From: Thermococcus celer Vu 13 = JCM 8558
Lineage (GTDB): Archaea > Methanobacteriota_B > Thermococci > Thermococcales > Thermococcaceae
DNA length: 64,000 nucleotides
Assembly: GCF_002214365.1 (NCBI RefSeq)
Contig: NZ_CP014854.1
Span: 248,001-312,000 of the forward strand
Reading direction: 5' to 3'
Shown here: positions 8,424 to 60,311 of the stretch, in pieces
How positions within the stretch are numbered: position 1 is the first letter of the stretch
Layout of the letters: every line of letters starts with the position of its first letter
The notes under the pieces: generated by a model
The model's input: only the letters and a program-made list of their open reading frames with translations
The model's database searches: none
What the model was told of the DNA's origin: nothing
Translations under genes and position numbers: made by a program

Positions 8424-8819
8424 ATGGGGAGGCTTAAAACCCTTAGCATAGCGTTCCTTGGAATCGGAATCATCTCCCTTATACTTGCGTTCCTGAAAGG
8501 GGAAGTAGCCCTCTATATTGTTGGAGCCTTGCTCCTCATGTTTTTCCTAATTACACCCTACGATGTTCAGCTCAGAGGTGACCGTTTAATCGTGAAACAT
8601 CCCCTTATCACACGGAAATATAAAGTGATTGAAACAATCCCTGTGTCTGTTTTTTCAATAGCTAAAGCTAGAAAGTTTGGCATGCGGATTGGTAACATAT
8701 GCATTGGTTATTTTTCAACAAGGGAAGGGCAGGATGCATTTTTTGCAACCACACAGTCCTCTGCACTTTTAGTCAGAACCGAAAAGGGGCTGTTCGTCAT
8801 AGACAATCCCAGTAAATAA
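8424..8819 (+). CDS. Small membrane protein with PH-like C-terminal domain
   Basis: A 131-residue protein with two N-terminal membrane segments (about residues 5-23 and 28-44) and a C-terminal beta-rich part beginning YDVQLRGDRLIVKHPLITRKY. The two-helix plus beta domain layout resembles bacterial PH-domain (bPH) membrane proteins. It is first in a plus-strand operon with an ABC-2 permease, its ATPase and a HELAH protein. Its DNA is AT-richer than the purine genes. A role as accessory subunit of the transporter is inferred only from position. Confidence 0.6.
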   Translation: MGRLKTLSIAFLGIGIISLILAFLKGEVALYIVGALLLMFFLITPYDVQLRGDRLIVKHPLITRKYKVIETIPVSVFSIAKARKFGMRIGNICIGYFSTREGQDAFFATTQSSALLVRTEKGLFVIDNPSK

Positions 8820-8835
8820 CCAAGGGGGCTGTGAC

Positions 8836-9642: not shown

Positions 9643-9651
9643 GGTGATCCC

Positions 9652-10575: not shown

Positions 10576-10599
10576 AGCAACCCGATAGAACGCATCATA

Positions 10600-12135
10600 A
10601 TGGATGGGGAAAAGATGCCGGATGTTAAGTCCCTGATGGTGCCCCTTTTAATTCTCCTCATTTTCTTCGCCTATTACATCACCCCTTCGGGAGTTCAGCA
10701 AAAGCCTGTCATTCATCTCAACCTCTCCCCCATTTCCGATTGCTCGGGTAACGTCTGCGTTGAAGTCAATCCCTACCTTGAACTCACGGATGTTGTCTTC
10801 CACATGGCCGGCTGGAACTATAACGACACGCCCTATGCCAGGGAGGCAATGTCTTACTTCTCCCCTTACAAAAACCATAAGGCGGTGCTCCTCGCCAGAA
10901 AGGCTATGAAGAAAGGTTTGAAATACGATGCAATCCCCAGGTTTGCCATGCAGCTGAACTCCACGGAGTGGGATGAACATCTAATAGGGAGGGTTCACGG
11001 GGACGAAAAACTCCTCAACGAACTCGCTTTAGCTATGAAGGAGTTCGCCAGGGACTCGAACTTTTCAGGATTCTACGAGGGACATGGAAAATTCTATGAG
11101 GGGCAGATAAACCTCTCCCTTAAGGAGAACCCGAATCTTTTCAGCATTCCAAATTTTGAGGAGAACTTCTTCGGAGGGAGGAAGGAACGCTATGTCTTTG
11201 TCCTTCAGCCCCTTGAGATGTATAGCAGTTACGGTGGCTACATGGATGGCGGTACCGTTTATGGATTTCTCGGCGTTTGCTCTAATGGCTCATACTGCGA
11301 TGCCTCTGTCCATGAGTTAGCCCACAGCTTCGTCAATCCCGCGGTGGACGCTCATTACGCCGAGTTCAAAGAATACTCCCAGATGTTCTCACCTGTAAAG
11401 GAGGTTATGCCATCCATGGCGTACTCCACCTGGAAGGTCTATCTTGATGAGACCTTCATCAGGGCTTTCAACGCTTACTACATCCTCGAAACGGAGGGAA
11501 ATCAGAGTGCTGAAAGGTTCATAGAGGGTCAGGAAAGTCTCGGTTTCTACCTCGTTGGAAAGGTTTACAGGGCTTATCTAACCGATTACCTTCCGAACAG
11601 AGATAAATACCCCACCTTCGGGAGCTTCATGCCAGAGCTCGCGAGGCTCATGGGGAAGTGGTACAGGGATGGCTTCTGGAAGAACGTCTCTCCCGAACCG
11701 ACCATCGAGAGGGCTTTCCTGGAATTTAAACATAAAGGAGTTAAAGTCTACGTTGTGGGAAACCTCTCAGAGAGTACCTACGTCAAAAACTACGTTGAGA
11801 TGCTCAAAGAGGCGGGCTTTAATGCGAGGCTTACAGACAGGCTCGATGGGGGTAACCTTATCGTAATCGCACCGCTGGATTCCCCGATAACCCGTAACCT
11901 GAATAAATACGTTGAACTTAAGAACTGCTCAGTCGTTGTGGATGGTACCGCTTACTCGAGTGGCGTCTTCCTCGTTGAAGCACTGAAAAATCCGAATGGG
12001 GATGGCTTCCTACTCCTGATCGCGGGAACGCCCGACGTGTTCGGGAGAAAACCATCGAATGGGGATGAGAGCCTGGGGGACTACCATTACTTCGTTTACC
12101 TGACGAGCATTAAACGGGTCGTTGCCTTCGGGTGA
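10600..12135 (+). CDS. DUF4932-like membrane-anchored putative zinc metalloprotease
   Basis: A 511-residue protein with an N-terminal membrane anchor or signal (LMVPLLILLIFFAYYI) and an outward-facing body. Residues 238-242 read HELAH, an HExxH zinc motif, within SVHELAHSFVNP, and a nearby AEFKEY could supply a third ligand. This matches what is known of DUF4932 proteins. The last gene of the ABC operon, it could process an exported peptide or protect against one; that is inference. An ATG at 10615 has a better ribosome-binding site (GGATGGGG) and may be the true start. Confidence 0.65.
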   Translation: MDGEKMPDVKSLMVPLLILLIFFAYYITPSGVQQKPVIHLNLSPISDCSGNVCVEVNPYLELTDVVFHMAGWNYNDTPYAREAMSYFSPYKNHKAVLLARKAMKKGLKYDAIPRFAMQLNSTEWDEHLIGRVHGDEKLLNELALAMKEFARDSNFSGFYEGHGKFYEGQINLSLKENPNLFSIPNFEENFFGGRKERYVFVLQPLEMYSSYGGYMDGGTVYGFLGVCSNGSYCDASVHELAHSFVNPAVDAHYAEFKEYSQMFSPVKEVMPSMAYSTWKVYLDETFIRAFNAYYILETEGNQSAERFIEGQESLGFYLVGKVYRAYLTDYLPNRDKYPTFGSFMPELARLMGKWYRDGFWKNVSPEPTIERAFLEFKHKGVKVYVVGNLSESTYVKNYVEMLKEAGFNARLTDRLDGGNLIVIAPLDSPITRNLNKYVELKNCSVVVDGTAYSSGVFLVEALKNPNGDGFLLLIAGTPDVFGRKPSNGDESLGDYHYFVYLTSIKRVVAFG

Positions 12136-12250
12136 AATTGAGGACGGGGGATGCTCTCACTTTAGCCTTCCCCCTGTTGAGCGTAGTGTAATAACGGAGA
12201 ATTCACACTCGACGGGATTAAAATAAGAATAGAGTAATCAAAAGCTTCAA
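12136..12250. other. Non-coding gap before the purQ remnant
   Basis: AT-rich sequence between the HELAH gene and the purQ remnant. I see no open frame of note, no convincing promoter and no repeat. It probably holds only the end of the ABC transcript and the rearrangement junction. Confidence 0.5.
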
Positions 12251-12360
12251 TACTGCGATTTCGAAACGGAAAAACAATAGAAAAAGCGGAGCGCGTCTGA
12301 TATACAGCTATCCAAGGACTTCGGTGGCATAATGATTCACCCGAAGAGGGCTTCTTATAG
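12251..12360 (+). pseudogene. Degenerate purQ fragment
   Basis: Compared with purQ at 4259-4930, this stretch repeats tgcgatttcgaaac (Cys-Asp-Phe-Glu-Thr region), the 17 identical bases aaagcggagcgcgtctg (Lys-Ala-Glu-Arg-Val), and aaggacttcggtggc (Lys-Asp-Phe-x-Gly), in the same order. It then reads IMIHPKRAS in one frame, matching the purQ C-terminal TMPHPERAS. The frame carries a stop and shifts, and most of the gene centre is deleted. It lies on the purL side of the accessory block, as expected if an ancestral purQ next to purL was split or duplicated when the block arrived. It cannot encode a working enzyme. Confidence 0.6.
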
Positions 12361-12361
12361 C

Positions 12362-13849
12362 TCAGCTCACCTCTAAATCCTTAGGCGTGAGCATCTTAAC
12401 TCCCTCCTTCTCGCATGACTCCCCGGCTTTCTCCGTGAACCCGGATTTTGAGAAGAAGAACATCACAGCGGAGCCAAATTCACTCCTAACCTTTCCGACG
12501 AACTTCTCTATGTCCCTGCGGGTCGCGGGCCGGTTCCTCCACTTAACCTCAAGCACGTAAACCTTATCACCAAAGGCGACCCCGTCGAACTCAACGTCAC
12601 CCCTCTGGTAGGGACGAAAGTCAACGCCCAGGGTTTCCCGTAGTTTCTCCCTGACCATGGCCTCTTCTGCAATTCCAAGCTCTTGTTTTGCCCTGAGGTA
12701 TTTCTCCTCCAGCTCCTTAATAAGTTCCTCCAGAAGTTTCTCCCGCCTGAGCTCCAGCTCGGTAATGCCAAGGTAGGTCTTTGCGAGCCAGAAGCGCATA
12801 AGCTTGTCCGTAAAGTAGTACCTCCCGTCCTGCCTCGTGATTAAATCAGTCCTCAGGAGGAACTTCAGGTAGTTCGACACCTCCCCGCTGGGTTTGTTCA
12901 AACGCCTGGCTATCTCCGAAAGCCTCAGTCCCTCCTCCTGGGCCAGGATAAGAAGTATCTGTTTGTGTATAGGCCCCTTATATGCCCTTGAGAGGGACTC
13001 GTTGAAGACGTATTCAAGGTGCGCGTAGATGTCCCCCTTCTCACTCAGCAGTTCGGTGAGGAAGGCGTAGTGGACGTCTTTACGCCGGATCTTCTCAAAG
13101 CCCTCCTCGACCAGACGCCTGCAAACTGCTAAAACATAAAAGGGATGTCCCTGTGTGAGGCGGTGGAGCAATTCAAGGGCCGAGTGAGTGGTTTCAGTCC
13201 CTGCCCTTTCCAGGATTGCTTTTGAGAGCGCTATCGTATCCTCCTTCGGCAGGCCCCTCAGGTAAATCCGTCGGAATTGCCCAAAGAAGGGATTCTTTGA
13301 GGCCAAAATTTCCTCCATCATCCTAACGGCGGAGCCGGAAATGAAGTACGCTATTTTCTCCTGCTTTTCTGTGATGGCACGCATCGTCTCCAGGAACCCT
13401 TTAAAGTTAAGAACCTCCTGAAATTCGTCCAGAATGAAAACGGCTTTTTGTTCTGTCTTTTCTAAAATTGACTCCTGCATTTCAAAGAGGGTCTCGAGGG
13501 TTCCCCCCTTGATCGCCTTAACCTCTCCATCGACGTTAAGCTTTGCCGAGAGGATCAGCAGGTCGTCCCACGTCAAGAGCTCGCTCCTCTCGACCTTCGT
13601 ATCCAGCGCATTGGCGAGTTCATAGAGGAGTTCCCGGGTGTAAGCGAAGATGAACGACTCCAGGCTTCCAATACGCTGAAGGTTCAGGTATGGGATTACT
13701 CCGTGAGCCTCTTTCTTAAACCTGAGGAGAAGTTCCGTTTTTCCGATCCTCCTCGGCCCGATAACGGCCACGTTGACCTTCTCACCCTTTCTCAGCGAGT
13801 TATAGGCGGAATGCAATACCCTCAATTCAAGCCTTCTGTCCACGAACAT
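12362..13849 (-). CDS. Archaeal AAA-type ATPase with C-terminal DUF234/nuclease-like domain
   Basis: A 495-residue protein of the archaeal ATPase family common in mobile regions. Walker A is GPRRIGKTEL (31-40), Walker B is VFILDEFQE (137-145). A winged-helix segment around residues 290-350 (LSEIARRLNKPSGEVSNYLKFL) is followed by a PD-(D/E)xK-like part with FDGVAFGDKVYVLEVKWRN near residue 430. Members of this family are linked to plasmids, proviruses and genomic islands, with unknown physiological role. It is monocistronic, with a perfect palindrome between its start and promoter, and lies between purQ-like remnants. Confidence 0.85.
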   Translation of the reverse strand: MFVDRRLELRVLHSAYNSLRKGEKVNVAVIGPRRIGKTELLLRFKKEAHGVIPYLNLQRIGSLESFIFAYTRELLYELANALDTKVERSELLTWDDLLILSAKLNVDGEVKAIKGGTLETLFEMQESILEKTEQKAVFILDEFQEVLNFKGFLETMRAITEKQEKIAYFISGSAVRMMEEILASKNPFFGQFRRIYLRGLPKEDTIALSKAILERAGTETTHSALELLHRLTQGHPFYVLAVCRRLVEEGFEKIRRKDVHYAFLTELLSEKGDIYAHLEYVFNESLSRAYKGPIHKQILLILAQEEGLRLSEIARRLNKPSGEVSNYLKFLLRTDLITRQDGRYYFTDKLMRFWLAKTYLGITELELRREKLLEELIKELEEKYLRAKQELGIAEEAMVREKLRETLGVDFRPYQRGDVEFDGVAFGDKVYVLEVKWRNRPATRRDIEKFVGKVRSEFGSAVMFFFSKSGFTEKAGESCEKEGVKMLTPKDLEVS

Positions 13850-13859
13850 GTCATCACCT

Positions 13860-13883
13860 TATAGTTTTATGCATAAAACTATA
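13860..13883. promoter_or_regulatory. Perfect 24-bp palindrome before the ATPase gene
   Basis: The arms tatagttttatg and cataaaactata form an uninterrupted perfect inverted repeat of 24 bases. It ends 10 nt before the ATG of the minus-strand ATPase and directly precedes its ribosome-binding site (AGGTGAT). Position and symmetry fit an operator bound by a dimeric repressor. The protein that binds is not known; autoregulation through the winged helix of the ATPase is possible. Confidence 0.6.
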
Positions 13884-13961
13884 ATGCATTAGAGTTTAAT
13901 AGTTTTTGGTTGTCTATGGGATGAGCGACATAATGCCTCACCCGATCCCGTTTCCATTATT

Positions 13962-13995
13962 TTTACATTTTACTGCCAAAATAAATCTTAAAAAC
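13962..13995 (+). promoter_or_regulatory. purL operator-like palindrome and TATA box
   Basis: Positions 13962-13979 read TTTACA-N6-TGCCAA, fitting TTnnCA-N6-TGnnAA, and cttaaaaac at 13987-13995 is the TATA-like box 8 nt downstream. The arrangement matches that of purD and of the second purP. purL therefore has its own promoter and is not dependent on the distant purQ. Confidence 0.55.
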
Positions 13996-14038
13996 TTTAA
14001 ATTTTTACATATTTCTGACAATAAGGGAGGTGATCCTC

Positions 14039-22725: not shown

Positions 22726-22995
22726 ATGGGACACACGATTTACTATCATTTGGAGCTCAAAGAACCCGGAAGGGCGTTCCGGTTCATCGAGAGGGTCTGC
22801 CGGGGGCTAAACCTTGAGTACGGGCTTCTGGAGGGGGAGATTATCGTAAGATGTTCCCCCAATGTGGAGCCCCTCGTAATCAAAAACGGGGAGGGCTTTG
22901 CAAAGACCTACGGTCGGGAGCCGTGCACGTCCCTTTACCTGCTGCTCTTGCTCTCGCTCTCCTCCTTCGGCTCGGTCGAGCTCTGGGAGGACTGA
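22726..22995 (+). CDS. Hypothetical protein, 89 residues
   Basis: A compact alpha/beta-looking protein starting MGHTIYYHLELKEPGRAFRF, ending SLSSFGSVELWED. No motif is recognisable. A TATA-like ccttttaacg lies about 50 nt upstream and GGAGGG precedes the ATG, which makes it likely to be real. Its 3' end overlaps the convergent DUF2101 gene by 61 nt, which is unusual for this genome. The 171 bases between guaAA and this gene hold only the promoter. Confidence 0.6.
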   Translation: MGHTIYYHLELKEPGRAFRFIERVCRGLNLEYGLLEGEIIVRCSPNVEPLVIKNGEGFAKTYGREPCTSLYLLLLLSLSSFGSVELWED

Positions 22996-23708
22996 CCCCC
23001 GAGGTAAACCTCGAGTATCCTCGTCGGAACCGCCCCCCTGAGCTTCCTGTCCTCTATGAGGAGCTTAACGACCCGCCCCACCTCGAGGTCATCCACTGCA
23101 TCCACCCAGTAGTAGCCGGGCTTGACGTTGGCGGCTATGTCATCGTGAACGGATACCCTGGCGAGGCCGCCCCTGAGTTCCTCAACGACCCCGTAGGTGT
23201 AGTCCCGCCCGTATTTCGCCTTGAAGTACCACCTGAACGCCAGGATGGCCACGACCACCAGCGTGAGGTAGGTGTAGTAATAGTAGACGCTCGTGGCGAT
23301 CCTTCTGAGGAGGTCGTAGCCGAGGAACGCACCGAAGGATATGGTGGATATCGAGTAGTAGAAGAACCTGTAAGGTTGAAATTCGATGAAGAACTCCCTG
23401 TTTCTGGTCAGGGTGTACCTGAGGTATAGGAAGTAGATCGCGGCAAGCCCCGCGAGCCACAGTGGGTTGAGCCTCAAGAAGAGCAGGGCAAGGTTGAGCG
23501 AGAGGTAGCCGAGGAAGGTCAGCTGGAGCTTGAGGCTTAGGAACTCGTGGACGGTGAGGGGCTTTTTGGTGAGCTTTCTGAGGTACTTGAAGCGCGGAGG
23601 CTCGGAGGAGGGGGAGGGGTGCAGGAAGCCCTTTACGGACTCGATAATCCTCCTGGTTCCAGAGTCCACGGACTCACCTATTCTGTAAAGGAATTCTTCA
23701 ACGTTCAT
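22935..23708 (-). CDS. DUF2101-type membrane protein
   Basis: A 257-residue protein with about four membrane segments (around residues 60-100 and 115-160, including LTLVVVAILAFRWYF) and a soluble beta-rich C-terminus (RGGLARVSVHDDIAANVKPGYYWV, RVVKLLIEDRKLRGAVPTRIL) followed by an acidic/Ser-rich tail. This layout fits DUF2101, a family of Thermococcales with no known function. It closes the CetZ-pilin operon, 4 nt after the 816-residue protein, so a role in that system is likely. Confidence 0.7.
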   Translation of the reverse strand: MNVEEFLYRIGESVDSGTRRIIESVKGFLHPSPSSEPPRFKYLRKLTKKPLTVHEFLSLKLQLTFLGYLSLNLALLFLRLNPLWLAGLAAIYFLYLRYTLTRNREFFIEFQPYRFFYYSISTISFGAFLGYDLLRRIATSVYYYYTYLTLVVVAILAFRWYFKAKYGRDYTYGVVEELRGGLARVSVHDDIAANVKPGYYWVDAVDDLEVGRVVKLLIEDRKLRGAVPTRILEVYLGGQSSQSSTEPKEESESKSSR

Positions 23709-23712
23709 GATT

Positions 23713-26163
23713 TCACCTCTGGAGGAGGTCTTCCGCCCCCTGTTTTCCGAATATTGCCTCTGCGGTGTCTTCGTCGAGGAAGAACGGGATCGTGCTTAAA
23801 TCTCCGCTTGATGTTACTCCCTGGGAAATTCCCCACACCCTGAACCCTGAGACCTTTGAACCGCCCTTAAAATAGTAGTTGAGGAAATAGTAGTCCACGC
23901 TGGACTGCCCTTCTTCCACTGAAATCCCCAGCGTATTGAAGAGATTGAAGAGCTTCTCATCGTAGTTTGCGTGCGGTATCATGAAGCTGACGAGGCCTAT
24001 GGGATAGTATTTATCTCCGTATTTAACCCCGAGCTCGTCCTGCATCCTGTGGGCGAGGGTTACGTACGCGTCGTGGTTTGTGCTGCTACCCTCAAGGCGC
24101 TCGAAGAAAGACCATCCCCCGTATATGCCGAAGTAGCGGTTGTCCTGGATGCAATCTATGAAGGGCTGGAGGTCGTAGGCGCGGGCATTTGAATAGGTCG
24201 TTGAAGAGGTAGGTATTGTTTCTTCTGCCCCTGCACTTACCCTTGGTTCTGGATTGGCGTATTTGCGGATTCTCACCAGATCCACCCAGTAATCATAACC
24301 TCCAGCAATGTAGTAATTAGTAAAATTAGAATACTGAGTATCGGTGATAGACCCTGATGCTACAACAGTTCCTTCAGGGTATTCAAGTTCTACACGTATA
24401 GTTCCATTGCTCATTATTATCAATCTTTGCAAATACCATACATCCGTTGGAATAGTGGTGATGGTATTATATGAATGGGCTGAAGCGCTCATTCCTGTTC
24501 TTACATCTATGCGAGCTTTGTTTCCTTTAATATTAGCGGCAGAACCATATCCATTTCCATTATCATCTACAACACCAACCCTATCCCAGTTACCACCGGT
24601 TGATGCAGAGTTCCTGTTAATCCATGACTCAACTATAATATCCCTACCGAGAGGTTTTGGCAATGCTTTCCAAGCACCATTCGGGTCATTATTCTTCGTT
24701 TTATGTGCTGAATAGGTTCCTTCATATCTTCTTGACGAATCCTGAGACACTTGACCCTTTCCATATTTTCTCCAGCCTGTCCAAGTTTCCATATCATCGA
24801 AGAAATCAAAAACCTTAGTTCCATCTGATTCAGAGGAAGCAGAAGGATTGTCATAGTACATATAAATCGTTGTAGTTGAATAAGCTGGAATATAAGGAAC
24901 TCTCACCCAGACTATTGCTTTCCCCGTTGTCGTGTCCCATTTTTCTATCCAGTATGGCAAAGAATTACAGGAACTATCGGCAAACCTTATGTCGCTTCCA
25001 TCCGCTTTTGCCTTTGAAAAATCAAAGTTAGTACTGTCTAACTCAACCTTAACTTGATAATCAGTTAAAGTATTTGGATTTTGTGTGTTGTCGATCGTTA
25101 TGGGTTTCCGGTGTTTCCAGTTCTGGTAATTGGAACACCAACCCCCTGGTGTTCCACCACCAGCACTCACACCATCGAACACCAGAACACCCATATCATT
25201 GTCGTTAAACACATCAAGCGGGGATATCTTCTTCCCGTTCAGGGTTGTGTTGACAATTGCTGGCTTTGTAATACCTGTCGTGTCCCCCTCGCGGAGCACA
25301 TACCCGTCTGCCCCGCTCCCGGGATATGAATTACCGTAGAATATGTACCCTCCTTTCAGGGTTGGGGAGTATTTTCCGATCACAGGGGAACTCGTACTAC
25401 TACCTTTACCCTCTAAAACTTTAATCGGCCTGTCAATGAGTTCGGGGAAGGGATAGGAGCATGCCCTAATTGACCGCTGGTACCTGCCTCCCGTCATCGC
25501 CGAAAAGAGGGGATCCTCAAGGTTCCGGATTGAGATTATCGAGCGGGTGGGGCCGTTTCTCGGCAGGGGGCCGGTGTAGATAACGGTCCCCGATAGGTCT
25601 TTGAGGGTGGCGTTCGGGATCCTGCCAAGTACCACGATCCTGAAAGAATCCAGGGGCGCGACGGTTAGGTTGATGTGCTTTGCAAGAAAACTATTTCTCG
25701 CGGATTCATTCCTTCTCATAATCTCGTCGATGCCCTTGTTCGCTATCAGGAATTCGTATCCCTGTTCTCTGAGCTTATCCGCTATCGTTACCAGCCAGTT
25801 CTCAACGCTCTGCCCCTTCATGACCCTGTTGAAGTCGTATCCGGGCATGCTCGATGACGTACCCGTCAAAATTAAGTCGCTGATGGTGTTGTTGACCCCA
25901 TATGCAGGGCTTATGAAACTCCTCATAACCGCCACATAATCAACGGCCGCCACCACCGCCCTCTTCCCGGAGAGCTCCAGCGCTTTTTCGAAGTCCATCT
26001 CGAGGTAGGACACCACACGGTAGGTTCTCTCAACCTGGGTTCTCTCGCTCTGGGCCACTATTATCTGGGACGAGACGTCCTCGTAGGTGGCTAAGAGGAG
26101 CATCAGGGGTATGATCAGGAGTAGAACTGTTGAGTTAATCAGAAAAGCCCGCCGCTTCCTCAT
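23713..26163 (-). CDS. Large surface protein with DUF2341 and LamG-like insert
   Basis: An 816-residue protein with an N-terminal signal or anchor (MRKRRAFLINSTVLLLIIPLMLLLATYE) and an outward-facing body rich in Asn-Xaa-Ser/Thr. Residues about 343-500 look like DUF2341 (NWKHRKPITIDN, then YMYYDNPSA), and 500-640 like a concanavalin A/LamG-type jelly roll. The central part (about 24200-25150) is clearly AT-richer than both ends, as if the module was inserted later. It overlaps the preceding gene by 4 nt. A role as adhesin or tip protein of the pilin operon is inference. Confidence 0.7.
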   Translation of the reverse strand: MRKRRAFLINSTVLLLIIPLMLLLATYEDVSSQIIVAQSERTQVERTYRVVSYLEMDFEKALELSGKRAVVAAVDYVAVMRSFISPAYGVNNTISDLILTGTSSSMPGYDFNRVMKGQSVENWLVTIADKLREQGYEFLIANKGIDEIMRRNESARNSFLAKHINLTVAPLDSFRIVVLGRIPNATLKDLSGTVIYTGPLPRNGPTRSIISIRNLEDPLFSAMTGGRYQRSIRACSYPFPELIDRPIKVLEGKGSSTSSPVIGKYSPTLKGGYIFYGNSYPGSGADGYVLREGDTTGITKPAIVNTTLNGKKISPLDVFNDNDMGVLVFDGVSAGGGTPGGWCSNYQNWKHRKPITIDNTQNPNTLTDYQVKVELDSTNFDFSKAKADGSDIRFADSSCNSLPYWIEKWDTTTGKAIVWVRVPYIPAYSTTTIYMYYDNPSASSESDGTKVFDFFDDMETWTGWRKYGKGQVSQDSSRRYEGTYSAHKTKNNDPNGAWKALPKPLGRDIIVESWINRNSASTGGNWDRVGVVDDNGNGYGSAANIKGNKARIDVRTGMSASAHSYNTITTIPTDVWYLQRLIIMSNGTIRVELEYPEGTVVASGSITDTQYSNFTNYYIAGGYDYWVDLVRIRKYANPEPRVSAGAEETIPTSSTTYSNARAYDLQPFIDCIQDNRYFGIYGGWSFFERLEGSSTNHDAYVTLAHRMQDELGVKYGDKYYPIGLVSFMIPHANYDEKLFNLFNTLGISVEEGQSSVDYYFLNYYFKGGSKVSGFRVWGISQGVTSSGDLSTIPFFLDEDTAEAIFGKQGAEDLLQR

Positions 26164-28307
26164 CCGTTATCCCTCCAGACCCTAAGGGTTATGGTTATCG
26201 GCTCAAACAGGCCGGGGATGTTGCCCATCGGGGCGAAGTCTATCCTGACGCTGGACGGAAGCCCTACGTCTATGGGGTTTTCTTGAGAGCCATCGTATGG
26301 AGTTTTTTTCCATTCTCCGGGGTTTGCATCATTCTTAAAGTTGAGCTTATCGAACAGCCTCAGGATGGCGTCGTCGAGGGCGTATTTGTCCGGCTTTAGT
26401 TCATCGACGGAGATATCTTTGTAGGTTTTATCACCCACGAGAATGGTGCTCTTAACGGGTCCCTCCCCAATGTCATAATAGTAGGTTAGCCTGTAACCAT
26501 TGTACGTCCCCTGGCCCTGGAGAAGGTAGGGGAAGACGTCCCCGTAGCCAGCGTAGCCGGATATGAAATAGTTAATTATGGCCCTGCTCTCACCGGGGCG
26601 GAATCCATACTGAGAGACGTCTGAGCTCTCCGCCAGATACGTATTCTTCTGGCCCGGAACCATCATACTACCATTCAACTGGGAGTACGCCGCCCTTATC
26701 ATATATATGTCCGAATAATTGTTGTAGAACACCTGCCCGTTTTCCGAAAGGGTTGTAGTCGATGATGGGGTGAACGTTGTGAACTGTATGGCCGTCCATA
26801 CATCCACGTACCATGGTATTGCAGTTTCTGGTAGCGTGTAGGAGAAACTCATTTTGGAACATCTAACTGGGGTTCTATAATAGTAAACACAAGTGCCGCC
26901 ATAATGGATATCACTGTAGTTTTTGAATATCGAGAGAGGTATTGAGTAGGGGGTGGTGAGGGTTTTCGGCACGTAATCTATTCTTATCCACGATTGGCCG
27001 TTTCCGTAGAGGTGCCTCTTCCTGTAAGAGGTATCATAAACAAAGTACCTTTTCTGACTATCCCATTCAGCGTCGAGAGCTATGACTATTCCAAAATAGG
27101 TCTTGGACAGGTTGTCGAGAGTGAAACCATACCTGTTCAGGTTTCCTTCTATCTCCGAGGAGCTTATGTCCACGCTTTGAACTCCTGTAGTGGGTACTGT
27201 CCTCCGCGCGATTAAGTAGTTGTTGGAACCGTAGGGGTAGTAGACGCGTATATTTTCGACACCTTCAGTAACGAGATGGAGTGATATACCTGTGATGATA
27301 CCCGGAGCAAATAGGGCGTTTAGGTAGTAAATTCCCGTGTAGCTCTGAACATCGTAGAGCTCTCCGTAACGCCTTGTAGGGTCAAAAAACCGGGAGTCCG
27401 TGGTATTGGTGGAGTAGTTCACATACATCATGGAGCCGCTTGCGTATCCCAGCTCATAGCAGTTATCAGTGCCGTAAGAGGTCGAAAATGTCGCAGTTAA
27501 TACGTTATCCCCCCCCGTTAGATAGTCTTTGATATCGGAATGATATCCCGCTCCGAGCGAGTGGCCGTTGAGGTCAAAAGACGATGTTTGATATCCCGTC
27601 CTCTCAGCAAGCTGTATATCAGCTTTTTTAATATCCACATCGTCGGGAAGTCGGAAGTGGCTCCGAACAGTTAGGGTGTTTGCACCCTCCCCATAATTCG
27701 TGGTGTAGCGACATCTAGCTAAAACCCTCTGAATTCCAAAGATGTCGCTCCTCGTGTACTCCGCCTTCGTCAAATAAGCCCTCGCCATGTAGCCCCTCGG
27801 CGTCTGGTTGTAGGCGTAACCGCTCAAAACAAGGGTGGCGGGTGAAACGTCAGGGACCTTTGAAGGATCGGAGCCGACCTTACGGAGGTAGGGGCTCGTG
27901 TAGTTGTTTATCATGAGCTCGTAGTTGTAGTTCCTAAGCGTGTTGTTGAGGATGTAGCCGAGTATCACCTCCGCCTTGTGCTTCAGGTTTGCGCCCGGAA
28001 AAATGGGTGCCGTGGCCCAGTAGGTTGTCACTATATCCAGTGGGGACATGTCGGGCGTTACAAGGGTTGTGTTGAGGGTTCCGTTGCTTATCCATCCGTC
28101 CACCACGTTCTGAGGGACCAGATCCCTCAAAGAGGTCGTTCTCAGCGTTAGCAGGGTATCTTCCGCCACGTACTTGGACTGGGAGCGCATGTAGGTGGAG
28201 TAAACCTGAGAGCTTGGGTTGATCAGGGTTATGCTGGCCACGAACATCGTAACCAGCAGGAGGGCGAGCAGGGCATCAAGGGTGAACACAAAACCTTTCC
28301 TCTTCAT
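26160..28307 (-). CDS. Large pilin-like surface protein
   Basis: A 715-residue protein whose N-terminus, MKRKGFVFTLDALLALLLVTMF, resembles a pseudopilin or class III signal: short basic head, then a single hydrophobic helix. The body is long, Tyr/Asn/Thr-rich, with many N-glycosylation sequons and few charged clusters, as in exported archaeal proteins. No known domain is recognised. Its middle (about 26600-27700) is AT-richer than the ends. Overlaps both neighbours by 4 nt, so it is translated with them. Confidence 0.7.
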   Translation of the reverse strand: MKRKGFVFTLDALLALLLVTMFVASITLINPSSQVYSTYMRSQSKYVAEDTLLTLRTTSLRDLVPQNVVDGWISNGTLNTTLVTPDMSPLDIVTTYWATAPIFPGANLKHKAEVILGYILNNTLRNYNYELMINNYTSPYLRKVGSDPSKVPDVSPATLVLSGYAYNQTPRGYMARAYLTKAEYTRSDIFGIQRVLARCRYTTNYGEGANTLTVRSHFRLPDDVDIKKADIQLAERTGYQTSSFDLNGHSLGAGYHSDIKDYLTGGDNVLTATFSTSYGTDNCYELGYASGSMMYVNYSTNTTDSRFFDPTRRYGELYDVQSYTGIYYLNALFAPGIITGISLHLVTEGVENIRVYYPYGSNNYLIARRTVPTTGVQSVDISSSEIEGNLNRYGFTLDNLSKTYFGIVIALDAEWDSQKRYFVYDTSYRKRHLYGNGQSWIRIDYVPKTLTTPYSIPLSIFKNYSDIHYGGTCVYYYRTPVRCSKMSFSYTLPETAIPWYVDVWTAIQFTTFTPSSTTTLSENGQVFYNNYSDIYMIRAAYSQLNGSMMVPGQKNTYLAESSDVSQYGFRPGESRAIINYFISGYAGYGDVFPYLLQGQGTYNGYRLTYYYDIGEGPVKSTILVGDKTYKDISVDELKPDKYALDDAILRLFDKLNFKNDANPGEWKKTPYDGSQENPIDVGLPSSVRIDFAPMGNIPGLFEPITITLRVWRDNG

Positions 28308-29749
28308 GAGTCATCCCACACCAGGAGTTTTATTATAGCCTCGTCGAGTTTGGGCTCCATCAGGTACTTTATGCTGGGAACCACATCAAGGCTTACATGA
28401 TCCCTGCCCCAACCGTTTAGGGAGTAAAGCCATAGTCCTATCGGCTTGTCCTTGGCATTCGGCCCGAAGAGCTCCTCGAAGGGTACCGTTATAGTGCTAC
28501 CGCTACCCTCGTAGTACTTTAGGGAGACTTTGCCGTTTTCGTAATAGGCCAGGGTCGCTTTTAGCTCCGTGGAGTTCCCGTAAACGAAGAGTCCCCTGAC
28601 TTCAGTGCCCAGGACTGAAATTAGGGTTAAATTGCCCTGGGAGGCTGAACTGACCTTAACCCTGAGGGAAGTTCCGAGCGGGGGGTTATACCGCATTACG
28701 CCGTAAACGATGGGTTCCTCCTTTGAGGGGCCACCCGATAGGTTGTAAGCGAACCTTGAAACGGTTGTAACCCTCTCTGCGGGCTCTATCCAGGGGGAGT
28801 TGCCCATCGATTTATCTATCACAGCCCCATCGTTCACGATTGAACCGTTTATCATTGCAAAACTGTGGAAAGATTCCCCATTCTCCAGGAACTCCCGTGC
28901 ACCCGTGAAGTTCGATTTAAGCTGTGGAAGGGCGTTGTCCCGGGCTGAAATTCGGATCTGAACCTGTCCCTGCCCCCCTATGTGTATGGAGGTTATATTA
29001 CCAGGGCATCCGGTCACGCTCATGCGATACTGACTCGTAGAGTCGATAACCTCAAACTCGACCTTTACGTTCGAAGGGAGGGTTTTCTCAAACGTTTGCC
29101 CTCCCTGCACAGTGACATTTATCGCCTCGGTGGCAACAAACACCAGGTGATCACCCGGTTTAAGAAACACGTTACCAGAATTCTCCAGAGTTAAACTACA
29201 TACGTCCCCATTCACATAAGACGTTCCGTCCCTGGTTAGGTTGATGTAGGAGATGGAGAACTCCGTATTACCCGGCCCTGCTTTGGATATTTTAACGTTT
29301 CCCAAATCATTCCCTGGAAGAAGAAGGTTGTGAAGATAGTACCTCGGGAACCTTCCGGAGATGCTCACGTTAAAGCTCGAGAGATAGAACTCCATCCGGA
29401 AGTCCTTCCCCATGCTGAGGTTCAGGAGGCTCTCCTTCACGCTGGCATCATCAAAATGGTTTTTCAGGGCCAGGAGCTTCTCGTAGCTCAGGGCGTAGGT
29501 GTAGTTCTCGCTTCTCAACCCGACCACTTTTACCCCGCTGGGGTTCGCCTCCCAGTCGGATGGAACACCGGGGTTCTTAACGAGTACGTCGAGCATGTTG
29601 TCCGCTACGTTGGCCCTCTCGTACCATCCGAGCAGAGAGGTTATCTCGCCCCTAAGGTTGTCAGCGGTGGTGGTTACCGTCCCGAGTATCATGATGACCA
29701 TGACCAGTGACAGCATCGCGTCGAGCGAGAGCAGCTGGCCCCTCCTCAT
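28304..29749 (-). CDS. Pilin-like surface protein, 481 residues
   Basis: The N-terminus MRRGQLLSLDAMLSLVMVIM follows the class III pattern (basic head, Gly-Gln, Ser, hydrophobic stretch) of archaeal pilins that are cleaved before the helix. A long beta-rich exported part with N-sequons follows. The last residues, EAIIKLLVWDDS, run into the next gene. Unknown function; the position within the series of pilin-like genes suggests a minor pilin or an anchored subunit. Confidence 0.7.
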   Translation of the reverse strand: MRRGQLLSLDAMLSLVMVIMILGTVTTTADNLRGEITSLLGWYERANVADNMLDVLVKNPGVPSDWEANPSGVKVVGLRSENYTYALSYEKLLALKNHFDDASVKESLLNLSMGKDFRMEFYLSSFNVSISGRFPRYYLHNLLLPGNDLGNVKISKAGPGNTEFSISYINLTRDGTSYVNGDVCSLTLENSGNVFLKPGDHLVFVATEAINVTVQGGQTFEKTLPSNVKVEFEVIDSTSQYRMSVTGCPGNITSIHIGGQGQVQIRISARDNALPQLKSNFTGAREFLENGESFHSFAMINGSIVNDGAVIDKSMGNSPWIEPAERVTTVSRFAYNLSGGPSKEEPIVYGVMRYNPPLGTSLRVKVSSASQGNLTLISVLGTEVRGLFVYGNSTELKATLAYYENGKVSLKYYEGSGSTITVPFEELFGPNAKDKPIGLWLYSLNGWGRDHVSLDVVPSIKYLMEPKLDEAIIKLLVWDDS

Positions 29750-30228
29750 TCTCTCACCACATCAACGTTTATCTCGATCTTTTTACCATTTAGGTAGAGG
29801 GGGTCGTTCAATTCCCCGCTCCATTCAACGTCGGTTCTTACCGAGACGTCCGTCTTGATGTACTGGGTTATACCCCTCTCGACCGTGCTCTCCGGAAGCC
29901 CGGCCCCGGTGTAGGTTATCTTAACGTCAACTTTTATGGTACCGTTGACCTCCTCCGTGCGCACCCCCAGGAGGCGGAACGCCCGGTAGGAGTAGTTCGT
30001 GGCGGTTATTATACCGTTCAGGGGATCGTGGATGTCGTCGTGGGTCACAACCCCAGCGTTCAGGTAGGCGCAGGCGTCCGAGGCCGAGCTTTTAACGTAC
30101 GATACTATAGAAACGGCCGTGTTCTCGTGTAGGTACGGAGGAATCACCACAAGAACCCCGGTTAAGATCACCGCGGTTATGAAGAGAACCTCAATCGCTG
30201 TCTGTCCCTTACGACGAGAGGACCACAT
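29746..30228 (-). CDS. Class III signal-peptide pilin-like protein, 160 residues
   Basis: N-terminus MWSSRRKGQTAIEVLFITAV contains the KGQ-x-x-x-E motif, the processing site of the archaeal class III signal peptide (DUF361), followed by one hydrophobic helix. The short beta-rich C-terminal part is of ordinary pilin size. It overlaps the gene upstream by 20 nt and the one downstream by 4 nt. Probably an export-processed pilin or minor pilin. Confidence 0.8.
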   Translation of the reverse strand: MWSSRRKGQTAIEVLFITAVILTGVLVVIPPYLHENTAVSIVSYVKSSASDACAYLNAGVVTHDDIHDPLNGIITATNYSYRAFRLLGVRTEEVNGTIKVDVKITYTGAGLPESTVERGITQYIKTDVSVRTDVEWSGELNDPLYLNGKKIEINVDVVRE

Positions 30229-30649
30229 CGACCCTCCCCTCCGCTTCGTTGTACGTTGCGGTTACGTTAAACTCCATGTTCGTTGCCGTTAGGGTTACCT
30301 TGCTGTTTTTGTATATCGGCACCTGAGCCCTCTGAACCACGTGGTAGGACTCCCCCCCGATATAGGCATCGATGGTGATGTTGCTCGGGGCGATAAGCTT
30401 AATGGTTACCTCATCCCCGCTATCCAGCTCAATTGGGAGCCTCTTCCTCACCGTGAACCCGTCCCCAACGGCGTACGCCTTGACCACGGTGTCCCTCACG
30501 TCGATGGAGAAGGCTTTAAGCTTCGCCACGGTGTCGAAGGCCTCCGAGTGGGCCTGCTCTATACTGGCAATATGGACTAAGTTGACCATTGTAATGGCTA
30601 TCAGAGTCACCGCGAACAGGAAGTCGAGGCTTATCTGCCCTTTCCTCAT
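30209..30649 (-). CDS. Class III signal-peptide pilin-like protein, 146 residues
   Basis: N-terminus MRKGQISLDFLFAVTLIAIT gives the KGQ-x-S-x-D/E class III motif and one hydrophobic helix. The remainder is beta-rich with one DxI pattern and no Cys. The ATG at 30649 follows GGTGGA; the GTG at 30658 is in frame but within that site. It starts 1-2 nt past the stop of the 211-residue pilin-like gene. Confidence 0.8.
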   Translation of the reverse strand: MRKGQISLDFLFAVTLIAITMVNLVHIASIEQAHSEAFDTVAKLKAFSIDVRDTVVKAYAVGDGFTVRKRLPIELDSGDEVTIKLIAPSNITIDAYIGGESYHVVQRAQVPIYKNSKVTLTATNMEFNVTATYNEAEGRVDVVLSS

Positions 30650-30650
30650 C

Positions 30651-31286
30651 TCATCCACCAGGTTTTATGTTTATGCGGAGCTCGCCGGCCGTTGGATCGA
30701 ATGCCCACGAGACGGGCTTGTCTGGGTTCCACTCCACTATTATTTTGAGAGTGGAAGGGAGGCTGGCCGGCTTTATCCCGAGGCCGTAGAGTGTGGTTGA
30801 GTCCACGGTTAGTCCAACCCCCGGAGACCACACGGAGGAATTGGTGTAGAGAATGGCCTGGTACATGCCCCTGCTCCAGAAGACGTTCTTGTCCCCCCCA
30901 CTGAGAACAAGGGTGCCGCTGGTTCCAACAACGGTGACGTACGTTCCATTGCCCTCATTACCGTAGTTCCCGTAGGTTATGAAGACGGTGGGGTCCTTCA
31001 CGCCCAGACCTTTGCTGAGCATCTCCGGGTCCCGTAAGTAAGTTAACTCCACGTAGGCCGTCGCCTTCGAGCCCGGCCCCTGGGCGTAGACCTGGGATAT
31101 CGTGTTCGATATCGCGTTGGCGAGGTTCTTCTCCTCGAGGCTTATCTGGATCCGGAGGTTCTCGGTCGAGGCTGAGCCCTCCTTGAAGGTCACGTTGTTC
31201 ACGGAGTAGATCAGGAGGATGAGCATCACCCCGAAGACCAGCATGAACTCCAGTGAAACCTGCCCGCGTCCCGCTTTTTTTATCAT
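30651..31286 (-). CDS. Class III signal-peptide pilin-like protein, 211 residues
   Basis: N-terminus MIKKAGRGQVSLEFMLVFGV is a textbook class III signal: basic head, G-Q-x-S-x-E, hydrophobic helix. The body is about 180 residues, beta-rich, with N-sequons. It is the first pilin-like gene after the CetZ and membrane genes, 37 nt downstream of the latter. Probably the main structural pilin of the set, on length and position only. Confidence 0.82.
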   Translation of the reverse strand: MIKKAGRGQVSLEFMLVFGVMLILLIYSVNNVTFKEGSASTENLRIQISLEEKNLANAISNTISQVYAQGPGSKATAYVELTYLRDPEMLSKGLGVKDPTVFITYGNYGNEGNGTYVTVVGTSGTLVLSGGDKNVFWSRGMYQAILYTNSSVWSPGVGLTVDSTTLYGLGIKPASLPSTLKIIVEWNPDKPVSWAFDPTAGELRINIKPGG

Positions 31287-31323
31287 ACCTCTCCCCTCAT
31301 TGGGTTTATCTCAGTGCATCTAT

Positions 31324-31974
31324 TTAATCGTTACTCCCCGTCTCTGCGGAGGTTACTACCCGGCTCTGGGGACTCACGATGGCGAAAATCCCCGTTCCGG
31401 ACTTTCTAATTTCGACACCGAAGTAATCGCCGCTGAATATCTTGAACCTGTACCTCTCCGGCCGGAGGGAGTGCTTTTCAACGAGTTCCCTCAGCTCATC
31501 GATGAAGAACTGGGTAAGCTCGTAGTAAATTAGATCGAGCTTTTCCCGGGTTAGGCTCCAAATCAGGAAAACCGCCGGAAGAACCGCGAGTCCAAGGATG
31601 ACGTACGGTTGGCGCAGGAGAGCCGTAGCGATCACGGTGAGGATAATGAACACCGCTATCGAGGCGTACGCCATTTTCTCCCTCAGCCTCGCCTTTTTAA
31701 TCTCCCTCACCTTTCTCTCCCAGATATCCAGCAGGGCGGGGTTGTAGAAATCGAAGGCAGTGTGCCGCTTCCCCTTCGCTATCCTCTCCCTTATCAGATC
31801 GTCCCAGTCGTCACGGTAGTATATGACCTCCCCGTGGAGCCTCGCCCTCTCAGCATCGAGGGAGGAGATTATCCTGACGATGTCCTCCGCGCTCTCGTGG
31901 GCTATGTGGGAGTAGACCTCCTTCTCGTCCAGCTCGAGGGCGACCTCGACGGAGTCCCTGACGGGTTCAGTCAT
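31324..31974 (-). CDS. Two-helix membrane protein of the CetZ-pilin operon
   Basis: A 216-residue protein with a soluble N-terminal part rich in charged residues, two adjacent membrane helices around residues 105-145 (SIAVFIILTVIATALL and VILGLAVLPAVFLIWSL), and a cytoplasmic C-terminus. ATG 31974 follows a strong GGAGGGGAGGGG site; an upstream ATG at 31992 lacks one. The start overlaps the cetZ stop by 8 nt, implying coupled translation. It is a good candidate to tether CetZ to the membrane. Confidence 0.7.
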   Translation of the reverse strand: MTEPVRDSVEVALELDEKEVYSHIAHESAEDIVRIISSLDAERARLHGEVIYYRDDWDDLIRERIAKGKRHTAFDFYNPALLDIWERKVREIKKARLREKMAYASIAVFIILTVIATALLRQPYVILGLAVLPAVFLIWSLTREKLDLIYYELTQFFIDELRELVEKHSLRPERYRFKIFSGDYFGVEIRKSGTGIFAIVSPQSRVVTSAETGSND

Positions 31975-33097
31975 CCCCCTCCCCTCCGGCATCGGGATAC
32001 TCCTCCGGGAATCCTCCCCTCGCGTACACGTCGTCGAAGTCCGGTAAACCGCTCAGGAGCTCCCGCTTCTTCGTCTCCGCCTCCTCCTTGGCCTCCATGA
32101 ACGAGCGGGCGTACCTCTTCGCGGTGGCGATTACCTCCTCTATGCTCCCACTCTCGTATATCCCGCTTAGGAGGGTCACGACCTCGACCTCCCTCTCGCG
32201 CGGGTCCGGGTAGAAGCCCCTGAATATCTGCTTGCCCCTTATCTTGTTGGTGAGGTAGTCGAGGGCCTCGAATATCTCGGAGGCCTTGAGGACCTCGGGT
32301 GGGCCGTGGACGGCGACGAGGCCGTAGAGGGCCGATTCTATGTTCGCGTCAAGGTAGAGACCCTCGTTCTCGAAGGATTTTATGATAAGCCTGGAGAGGT
32401 TCTTCACCCTGCTCGCATCCGCCTTGGCGTAACCGACGGTTGCGAAGCTCCCGAAGGCCTTCAGTACGAACTTCAGGTCACTGGCGTCCAGCGTTTGCTC
32501 GCCGGGAACGTCCACGAGGGCGAGGAGCGATGCTATACGCTCGACTACCGTGTAGTTTATCCGCTCGTAGGCCTTCGCTATGTCGTCGCCCCCCTCCTTG
32601 AGCCTGTTGTTGTCTATGGCTATGATTGAGTCGGCCACCTTGGAGAGCTTGTCGATGGTTATGGCGGCGTTTATCGTCGGTCTTATGCCCTCCTCCTTGA
32701 GCGGGAGCGCCCCGATGGCGACGACGAGCGAATCCGGGTACTCCTCCTTTAGGGCCTCCGCCAGGACCGGCGTCCCCCCGGCTCCGGTTCCACCCCCGAA
32801 GCCAAAGGTGAGGAAGAAGATGTCAACGTCCTCGTAGCCTATTATCGAGCCTATCTTGCGCATGACCAGCGGAAGGTCGCGCTTCATCGCCTCCCTGCCG
32901 AGTATCGGGTTCGCGTTGACTCCCTTCCCGCCCGTCAGGCTCTCACCTATCAGTATCCTCCGCTCCGGGGGGACGTGCTTGAGGTAATCGAGGTCGCCGC
33001 GGGAGGTGTTTATCGCCAGGGCCTCGAAGTCAACAAGGGCGAAGAGGTCGGCTATCTTGGTCCCGCACTGGCCGACCCCTATGATTAGAGCCCTCAC
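31967..33097 (-). CDS. CetZ-like tubulin/FtsZ-family GTPase
   Basis: A 376-residue protein of the tubulin superfamily. The GTP-binding signature GGGTGAG is at 101-107 within FGFGGGTGAGGTP, and the N-terminal GVGQCGTKIADLF and AINTSRGDL match the CetZ branch better than canonical FtsZ. In haloarchaea CetZ proteins control cell shape; Thermococcales have CetZ besides FtsZ1 and FtsZ2. No other cell-division gene is nearby. Instead it is followed by membrane and pilin-like genes in one operon. The start is GTG 33097; the preceding gene ends 7 nt upstream. The C-terminal 60 residues are charged and could be a linker. Confidence 0.88.
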   Translation of the reverse strand: MRALIIGVGQCGTKIADLFALVDFEALAINTSRGDLDYLKHVPPERRILIGESLTGGKGVNANPILGREAMKRDLPLVMRKIGSIIGYEDVDIFFLTFGFGGGTGAGGTPVLAEALKEEYPDSLVVAIGALPLKEEGIRPTINAAITIDKLSKVADSIIAIDNNRLKEGGDDIAKAYERINYTVVERIASLLALVDVPGEQTLDASDLKFVLKAFGSFATVGYAKADASRVKNLSRLIIKSFENEGLYLDANIESALYGLVAVHGPPEVLKASEIFEALDYLTNKIRGKQIFRGFYPDPREREVEVVTLLSGIYESGSIEEVIATAKRYARSFMEAKEEAETKKRELLSGLPDFDDVYARGGFPEEYPDAGGEGDD

Positions 33098-33104
33098 CTC
33101 TTAA

Positions 33105-35324
33105 TCACCCCACCACCGTTACCCGTACCTTGCCATTCTCGAGGAGGAGAACCATCGCGTGTCCCCGGATGTACCTGATGAAGCCGGTGGTGAAGACCTC
33201 CCTGGCGATCTCTGAATTTTCGGGTTCGTACAGAACGAAGAGGACGATCCCCTCCGGGGTCTTGCCGGGGACGAGGACGACGGCTTCGCTCGTCGGTACG
33301 GTGATGTTTCCAACGGTTACGGTTCCGTTGTCCACGTAGAACTTCAGATAGGGGTTGTACTCCCTTATGGGGTATCCCGTGAAGTTCGCCAGGACTATGT
33401 AGCTCCCCTCACCGATTGAGCTCGTGTTGGCCGGGAGGAAACCCCCGCTGAAGAGGTCGTTGAGCGTCTTTATTACCGCTTCGAGGCTCTCGTTGTCCAT
33501 GCCCGGTGCTACTACTCTGAAGGTGTCCCCGTCGAGGGCCCTCCTCACGTCGTAAAGGTCAACGGGCGGGATGTACTGGAAGCGCGAGAGGTATTCTATC
33601 GCGCTGGCCATCTCTATCGTTTTGCCGTCTATCGCTCCGGAGTCCCTCGCGTTCATGACGAAACTCAGGGTCTCGTTGGTGTAGTTGTAGCCGTAGTCCA
33701 GCAGAAGGTCTGTTGCCCTGACCGTGAGCTCGACGGTCGGCGTTCCGGGGAATTCCCTGTTCTCGTCCCACACGTAGTACGTCTTCCAGTAGGGCCAGCC
33801 TCCGTCCACCCTCTGCTCTATCAACCACTCGAGGTGAGGTTTGAGCTCCTCGGGAGTGGCCATCCCCTTCAGAGCCTCCAGAACGGTGATGGTAGTCAGC
33901 ACGTCCGGCTTGAGCATGTAGGAGTAATAGGCGGTTGTTACGTAGGTCCCCCATCCGCCGTTGCTTACGCTTAAAAGCCAGCTCTTTGCCCTCTGGATGA
34001 GTGAATCGTTCGCCGGAACTCCCAGCTCACGCAGGGCATCCACTGCAAGCGCCGTGTCGTAGGGTTGTGGCCCGAGCACGGTGTTGCCCCAGAGGCCCTG
34101 ATCGAGCTGAACACTCCGTATAAGCTCCCTGGCCTCCTCCTTTTCCTCCGCCGTCAGGTTACCGTAGGCGAGGAGCGTTTTCAGCGCGTAGTAGTATCCA
34201 ACCGACATCCTGCGGTTCTCCTTCATCCAGTTCGCATCCCGTTCAAACGCCTCCCTCGTCCACGCGAGGGCCCTCCTGACCCTCTCCGTTGAGGGGTAGC
34301 ACACATCAATGGCCCTGAGCGCGTAGTAGGTGGCCTTCTCGTCGGACGGAGTGTTGAGGCCGAGCCCCCATCCACCATCGGGGTTCTGCATGTTTTCAAG
34401 CGCCTGACAGGGCATCTCGTAGGGGTTGCTGACTTTTTTTACCGGCGGCAGCTTGGAAACGCTCGAGAGTGCCATCAGGGCGTAGGAGGTGGTGGCTATA
34501 AGCTCGGAGGACGAGAACATGTACGGGGTGCTCACCCAGTAAACGAGGTTTCCCGCTTCCGTGCTGTAAGATTCGAGCCTGATGAGCATCCTCATCGTGT
34601 CGAAATCCCAGGGGGCGTAGAGAACGAGGACGTAGGTGAGCATGGCCCTCTCCTTCATGCTCAGGTCTCCGCCCTTAAGGAGAAGCTCCTTCACCGTCTC
34701 CAGCGTCCCGTTGGACACGGGGTAGCCCACGCTATGGTAGGCTATTAACTTGAGGGCGAGCGCCTCGTACTTCGGGAGCTCACAGGTGGCGTTCCCCACG
34801 TACTTGACGGCGTTTCTAACGGCCCTGCTGTTGTAGCTGTAACCGTTCTCGCCGAGGGCCCAGATGGCCGCAAGCGTCGGGTAGCAGGAGGTCGGGGTTC
34901 CGGGCACGTAGCCCCATCCATCGTCGTTCTCCGCCGAGAAAAGGTACGAGAGGCCGCGATCGATGGCGAGCTTCACTGTCCCCCTCTTCTGGCTCTCGAG
35001 GTACGGGTAGACCCTGCTAAAGGCCACAACGGCGTAGGCCGTGTCAACCACGTTGCTAACCTCTCCTGGATAGAAGCCCCATCCGCCGTCAGGATTTTGA
35101 TAATCGAGCATTCTGTCGACGAGGGTAACGAGGTCGGGGGTTACATCCCAGGCCAGGTCATCTGCCGCCGCCGAGAGGGCCATTATCGCCAGGCTTATTT
35201 CTCCCGTCTGCTGACTGGACCCGGCGGCGTCTTTGAGGAACCTCACGGAGCCGTCTATCGTTCCTGCGGCAACTGCTGGGATCAGCATGAGAACGATCGT
35301 TATCAGGGCAAGAATCCTCTTCAT
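33105..35324 (-). CDS. Secreted GGWG-repeat protein with terpenoid-cyclase-like fold
   Basis: A 739-residue protein with a signal peptide (MKRILALITIVLMLIPAVAAG) and at least six repeats of about 45-60 residues, each with a D/N-G-G-W-G core followed by a helix pair (for example NPDGGWGFYPGEVSNVVDTA). This is the alpha/alpha-barrel repeat of squalene cyclases, prenyltransferases and alpha-2-macroglobulin thioester domains. No DxDD or metal motif of a cyclase is apparent. The last 170 residues are beta-rich. It is the first gene of the CetZ operon and would act outside the cell; function unknown. ATG 35324 follows a second GAGGTG site. Confidence 0.8.
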   Translation of the reverse strand: MKRILALITIVLMLIPAVAAGTIDGSVRFLKDAAGSSQQTGEISLAIMALSAAADDLAWDVTPDLVTLVDRMLDYQNPDGGWGFYPGEVSNVVDTAYAVVAFSRVYPYLESQKRGTVKLAIDRGLSYLFSAENDDGWGYVPGTPTSCYPTLAAIWALGENGYSYNSRAVRNAVKYVGNATCELPKYEALALKLIAYHSVGYPVSNGTLETVKELLLKGGDLSMKERAMLTYVLVLYAPWDFDTMRMLIRLESYSTEAGNLVYWVSTPYMFSSSELIATTSYALMALSSVSKLPPVKKVSNPYEMPCQALENMQNPDGGWGLGLNTPSDEKATYYALRAIDVCYPSTERVRRALAWTREAFERDANWMKENRRMSVGYYYALKTLLAYGNLTAEEKEEARELIRSVQLDQGLWGNTVLGPQPYDTALAVDALRELGVPANDSLIQRAKSWLLSVSNGGWGTYVTTAYYSYMLKPDVLTTITVLEALKGMATPEELKPHLEWLIEQRVDGGWPYWKTYYVWDENREFPGTPTVELTVRATDLLLDYGYNYTNETLSFVMNARDSGAIDGKTIEMASAIEYLSRFQYIPPVDLYDVRRALDGDTFRVVAPGMDNESLEAVIKTLNDLFSGGFLPANTSSIGEGSYIVLANFTGYPIREYNPYLKFYVDNGTVTVGNITVPTSEAVVLVPGKTPEGIVLFVLYEPENSEIAREVFTTGFIRYIRGHAMVLLLENGKVRVTVVG

Positions 35325-35360
35325 CACCTCACACCTCTAAACTCATCCTAAGCCGCCGGA

Positions 35361-35370
35361 ATAAATAAAC
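35361..35370 (-). promoter_or_regulatory. TATA box of the CetZ-pilin operon
   Basis: On the minus strand gtttatttat lies 37-46 nt before the ATG at 35324, with a purine-rich element (ggaaaaa) directly upstream as a BRE. It is the only good promoter before the ten-gene unit that runs to 22935. Confidence 0.5.
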
Positions 35371-35414
35371 TTTTTCCATGGGCATGAGGCATGAATTGAA
35401 AAATCGAAAGGGGT

Positions 35415-60305: not shown

Positions 60306-60311
60306 GGTGGA

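Follow-up and report, generated by a model that had tools for sequence, protein, structure and literature searches.

The window, a stretch of 64,000 nucleotides from the Thermococcus celer Vu 13 = JCM 8558 genome (contig NZ_CP014854.1, positions 248,001 to 312,000), contains ten minus-strand open reading frames arranged head to tail at 22935-35327, the positions given in the original prediction. From the first to the last gene, the encoded proteins are 740, 376, 222, 211, 149, 160, 481, 715, 816 and 257 residues in length, the third (tm2) being 216 residues when counted from the ATG at 31974. The features are as follows.

35360-35377, minus strand: conserved BRE/TATA-like promoter box preceding the operon, GGAAAAAGTTTATTTATT
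33105-35327, minus strand: secreted alpha-alpha toroid protein with GGWG/QW repeats, arCOG03396-like, with SQHop and TED matches; 58 of 60 loci
31967-33097, minus strand: CetZ, tubulin-superfamily GTPase, with Tubulin and CetZ_C matches and the near-invariant C-terminal peptide LLSGLPDFDDVY
31324-31974, minus strand: tm2, two-helix membrane protein, start corrected, conserved cytoplasmic N-domain
30651-31286, minus strand: minor pilin A (pilA), RGQVSLE
30209-30658, minus strand: minor pilin B (pilB), KGQISLD
29746-30228, minus strand: minor pilin C (pilC), KGQTAIE
28304-29749, minus strand: bigA, large pilin-like protein, RGQLLSLD
26160-28307, minus strand: bigB, large pilin-like protein, KGFVFTLD
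23713-26163, minus strand: bigC, large pilin-like protein with DUF2341, KRRAFLIN, lacking an acidic residue at +1 to +7 (GspK-like)
22935-23708, minus strand: membrane protein of Pfam family DUF2101, final gene; 59 of 60 loci
23210-29550, minus strand: exchangeable tip cassette, limits inferred from relatives

The frames were in place and their order is kept in relatives, consistent with the ten-gene operon that had been proposed. The predicted gaps of 4-37 nt hold, and overlaps of 4-20 nt are present as well. The BRE/TATA-like box of the operon (TTTATTTATT at 35360-35369) confirms the promoter expected near 35361-35370. A corresponding box lies approximately 30-50 nt upstream of the first operon gene in most relatives. 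In two loci in which the toroid gene was not found (L047 and L067), it is retained immediately before cetZ.

The conservation of gene order was evaluated in 60 loci from 60 Thermococcales genomes representing six genera. The cetZ gene, tm2 and the six pilin-like genes were in the same order in all 60, with the toroid and DUF2101 genes found in 58 and 59, respectively. The order was kept even in the eight loci with no detected upstream tyw1-like gene. This conservation is far beyond chance and shows that the linkage of cetZ to pilin genes, predicted from the single locus, is not restricted to one strain. As the genes are neighbours, their co-occurrence does not count as independent evidence. 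Of 94 Thermococcales genomes, 89 had a CetZ_C match, including 73 of the 74 good ones. The linkage itself is not new since it was reported in 2016 and 2023. An FtsZ-family GTPase (arCOG02202) and a squalene-cyclase-like gene (arCOG03396) are described for most clade 1 pilus loci of Thermococci (PMC4858521, citing Szabo 2007), and all 15 Thermococcales cetZ regions analysed by Brown and Duggin (2023, PMC9856176) were described as pilin-associated, with CetZ proposed as a scaffold for type IV systems.

The product of the second gene matched the Pfam families Tubulin (6e-30, 105 bits against a cut-off of 33) and CetZ_C (5e-16, 59.2 bits against a cut-off of 21.6), whereas the match to the FtsZ family TIGR00065 was 117 bits, below the cut-off of 295. 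The best PDB matches of the CetZ profile were 4b46, 4b45 and 3zid, the CetZ structures, ahead of every FtsZ. In a tree with a single long-branched FtsZ as outgroup, the CetZ sequences of the Thermococcales grouped in a single clade (98), which lay outside the remaining CetZ-like groups (99). Judged by sequence, the second gene of the operon is CetZ and not FtsZ, as the original prediction had it, and no placement within the FtsZ clades that would argue otherwise was obtained. Two other, FtsZ-like genes are present in the same genome. The AlphaFold model of CetZ, obtained with a shallow alignment, was poor (pLDDT 57). The tail of CetZ in the Thermococcales loci carries a near-invariant LL(S/T)GLPDFDDxY sequence followed by a variable end, and canonical CetZ of other archaea ends in peptides of the LDYLLGDIExL type. 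In bacterial and archaeal FtsZ, the C-terminal motifs 'PAFLR' and 'GID' bind membrane anchors (PMC8178401).

The best start of tm2, at 31974, is backed by relatives and results in the predicted 8-nt overlap with cetZ; overlapping reading frames of the two genes were found in 60 of 60 loci. The helical cytoplasmic N-domain of tm2 is conserved as strongly as CetZ, with a mean column identity of 82-93%, and the membrane hairpin is not (approximately 44-50%). The predicted structure was good (pLDDT 85, pTM 0.77), and a fold search with the model returned no PDB match. Comparison with the known FtsZ membrane anchors SepF, FtsA and ZipA likewise yielded no family above cut-off and no PDB fold match. 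The gene is present as a single copy in exactly the 89 Thermococcales genomes with CetZ, and a search of 21 further genomes of the phylum produced only two marginal partial matches. These are weak relatives of the C-terminal half of tm2 in genomes of the same class (locus L156 at 6135-6836 and locus L157 at 10639-11379), in which no CetZ_C match was found and no pilins were evident near the tm2-like genes. The conserved GLPDFDDxY peptide of CetZ, together with an overlapping gene encoding an equally conserved cytoplasmic domain, suggests that tm2 is a tether for CetZ. The membrane partner that had been postulated is thus plausible, with tm2 as the putative partner.

The operon encodes six pilin-like proteins and not three as first described, because the three large proteins, previously regarded only as surface proteins, have pilin-like N-termini. 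A [KR][GA] site, a hydrophobic helix and an acidic residue at +5/+6 were found in every scored copy of pilA, pilB, pilC, bigA and bigB, with 13 of the 300 copies of these five genes unscorable, mostly due to start or motif variants. The Pfam class III signal was above cut-off for one protein and below for another. In contrast to the five, bigC had the acidic residue in none of 60 loci. The tip pseudopilin of bacterial type II secretion, GspK, is also without the acidic residue, a likeness that makes bigC the strongest candidate for the outermost position on the pilus. It also matched DUF2341 (9e-30), and DUF2341 proteins have been proposed as tip adhesins (Makarova, Koonin and Albers 2016, PMC4858521). 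In some alleles of bigA, the part presumed to lie at the surface has bactofilin-like (PF04519) repeats (locus L051 at 7585-10089 and locus L091 at 10367-12823). Of the flanking genes, the last matched DUF2101 (4e-78) and the first matched SQHop (2e-11) and TED (6e-5). An enzymatic role of the toroid protein as a squalene-hopene cyclase was rejected, the DxDD motif of these enzymes being absent in five of the five toroid proteins examined.

No motor genes were found in the 60 cetZ loci. A secretion ATPase and two TadC proteins, which a clade 1 type IV pilus requires, are encoded in the genome 1.03 Mb from the operon, in a locus (L037) comprising DUF515, an ATPase with an intein and two TadC-like proteins. 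This locus is the only one with a secretion ATPase and TadC besides a presumed archaellum locus and a PINc-type ATPase, both assigned by gene content and N-terminal sequence. The pilus motor of the genome is putatively of the clade 1 type (T2SSE ATPase and two TadC-like proteins). The motor TadC gene was found in 93 of 94 genomes, and the pairing of motor and minor pilins, which are unlinked, is suggested by the near-universality of both. Elsewhere in the genome there are also small class III genes that stand alone, as well as a weak candidate for the prepilin peptidase. The intein of the secretion ATPase contains a LAGLIDADG homing endonuclease (L037, 6166-9375).

The large proteins are encoded in a cassette that is swapped between species, in contrast to the strong conservation of the operon's inner half. 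Among relatives with CetZ 94-99% identical, the tips are only 32-43% identical. In 24 close pairs with cetZ identity of at least 94%, which are not independent of each other, bigA, bigB and bigC were below 50% identity in 11, 10 and 8 pairs, respectively. The correlation with the pairwise identity of tm2 was 0.80 for cetZ and 0.64-0.75 for the remaining operon genes, compared to 0.15 for bigB, 0.25 for bigC and 0.38 for bigA. Distant genomes can have close tip alleles: L091 and L075 share 68% identity in bigB and 48% in tm2, while the sisters L091 and L090 are only 37% identical in bigB despite 97% in cetZ. A short bigC (361-377 residues) was found in nine of the 60 loci, and a long bigB (843-878 residues) in exactly these nine. 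This combination requires six changes on the scaffold tree and forms one clade in the trees of bigB and bigC. Approximately unbiased (AU) tests on bigB rejected three scaffold clades, picked after the trees were seen, with p values of 5e-51, 6e-5 and 5e-48. A domain transfer from bigC to the long bigB alleles was rejected, as there was no BLAST similarity between the two and no DUF2341 in those examined; therefore, the coupled lengths represent alternative alleles.

At the DNA level, the identity of sister loci, mostly 82-94%, stops abruptly approximately 160-280 nt into bigA, or in minor pilin A or B, and resumes in or near DUF2101. The breakpoints cluster directly after the pilin N-termini, although the breakpoint counts are not independent events because close pairs share branches. 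The sharp edges and the resumption of identity past the cassette are the expected trace of recombination between conserved flanks. In the window, the cassette extends from approximately 200 nt into bigA to the inside of DUF2101, with a GC content of 0.47-0.53 as compared to 0.56-0.59 on either side. Ectodomains of large pilins evolve fast in general, and the variation of the tips could in principle be explained by rapid divergence in place or by relaxed constraint with no transfer between species. This explanation is very improbable given that distant genomes have closer tips than sisters (L091/L075 versus L091/L090), that identity persists right to the edge of abrupt breakpoints, and that the rare short-bigC/long-bigB allele is a single clade for both genes. 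The simplest reason for the exchange of the cassette would be diversifying selection on the specificity of the tip, for example in adhesion, self-recognition or avoidance of viruses.

The results are consistent with an operon encoding the minor-pilin and tip half of a clade 1 (Tad-like) type IV pilus together with CetZ and tm2 as a membrane-linked positioning scaffold, an interpretation to which we assign about an even chance. The three short minor pilins and the three large pilin-like proteins would form the initiating and tip complex, with bigC displaying its adhesin domain at the extreme end by analogy with GspK and PilY. The shared motor approximately 1 Mb away, the stand-alone small major pilins and the prepilin peptidase, all with functions assigned from their genes, would then assemble the pilus. 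It is envisaged that CetZ polymerises beneath the membrane, that its GLPDFDDxY peptide binds the cytoplasmic domain of tm2, and that tm2 marks or holds the site of the pilus. By the pattern observed, the surface cassette is replaced across species by recombination and the CetZ/tether half is inherited vertically. The more specific proposal, that a tubulin-family cytoskeleton anchors the pilus via a two-helix tether that reads the peptide, with a three-protein tip traded by recombination, is tentative and on balance doubtful. The predicted link to pilus-like surface assembly is borne out by the linkage of the genes, to which a contact between CetZ and the pilus may be added as a supposition.

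It is also possible, though somewhat unlikely, that CetZ has a general role in cell shape or the envelope and is placed in this operon merely to be co-expressed with the surface genes, making no contact with the pilus. Cell shape in Haloferax is stated to be affected by CetZ1 (Duggin 2015, cited in PMC8178401), Archaeoglobales, Methanosarcinales and other groups are reported to have CetZ with no pilin genes linked to it (PMC9856176), and the CetZ/tm2 half evolves separately from the surface half. However, none of the Thermococcales loci examined departs from the linkage, and in Halobacteria cetZ is described as independently linked to pilus genes (PMC9856176, PMC4858521). The original suggestion of cytoskeleton-guided secretion is not favoured, as there is no motor in the operon, and the putative clade 1-type motor, the stand-alone small class III pilins and the peptidase candidate of the genome agree with a pilus whose parts are encoded at several dispersed loci. 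In a related scheme, the operon would build a pseudopilus, a piston like that of type II secretion, that exports the toroid protein or other cargo through a port placed by CetZ. The minor appearance of all six pilin-like genes, the secreted product of the first gene and the GspK-like bigC agree with such a piston, which is nevertheless improbable since archaea have one membrane only, the genome has stand-alone class III genes of small size that would suit a filament, and the length, modular make-up and interspecies swapping of the large proteins would be expected of exposed tips and not of pistons.

In the type II pseudopilus (GspI-J-K) and in the minor pilins with PilY1, several minor pilins form the tip and the largest is without the acidic residue at +5. 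The tip proposed here resembles GspI-J-K in having several minor pilins and a bigC without the acidic residue, but homology was detected only in the N-terminal pilin signature, and three large modular proteins are present instead of one. A close likeness is to the clade 1 pili of Thermococci and Methanococci described in PMC4858521, with class III minor pilins, large DUF2341 proteins, two TadC components and stand-alone small major pilins. The present analysis differs from the available text of that account in a two-helix gene as candidate tether, a tip pilin lacking the acidic residue and exchange of the tip cassette. The Thermococcales CetZ regions of PMC9856176 contain the same genes, and a conserved C-terminal peptide, a membrane partner coupled by overlap, a separate motor and swapping of the tip are additions made here to the available text of that account. 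The VARTIG hypervariable module (PMC8416519) is similar in that surface genes of Thermococcales are diversified by interspecies recombination, but it comprises Ig-domain proteins of variable gene content that are neither in a fixed operon nor linked to CetZ. What appears new, by computation, is the pilin-like character of the large proteins, the acid-less bigC, the putative pairing of the CetZ peptide with tm2, the exchange of the cassette and the location of the motor apart. No experiments on a CetZ pilus in Thermococcales were found in a literature search of limited reach. The analysis offers a concrete partner (tm2) and a peptide for the mechanism behind the known linkage of CetZ and pilins, in a genetically tractable group. 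Exchange of the exposed part of a machine with the inside frozen points to strong selection on the specificity of the tip and, if true, would be an archaeal counterpart of the switching of surface antigens or receptors.

A compact operon with three tubulin-superfamily genes, encoding a canonical CetZ, a tubulin of approximately 338 residues and a third CetZ-like protein, was observed in other archaeal families, and the literature search found no report of it. Between the genes lies one for a protein of approximately 272 residues with a signal peptide and a C-terminal anchor, mostly ending in ELG. The operon was found at loci L158 (8353-12551), L159 (6673-11783), L160 (7208-11351), L161, L162 (8554-12680), L163 and L177 (1486-5653), and partly at L173. 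In the window, the GC content dips to 0.45-0.50 at 6000-14000 and 58000-64000, which are possible acquired segments.
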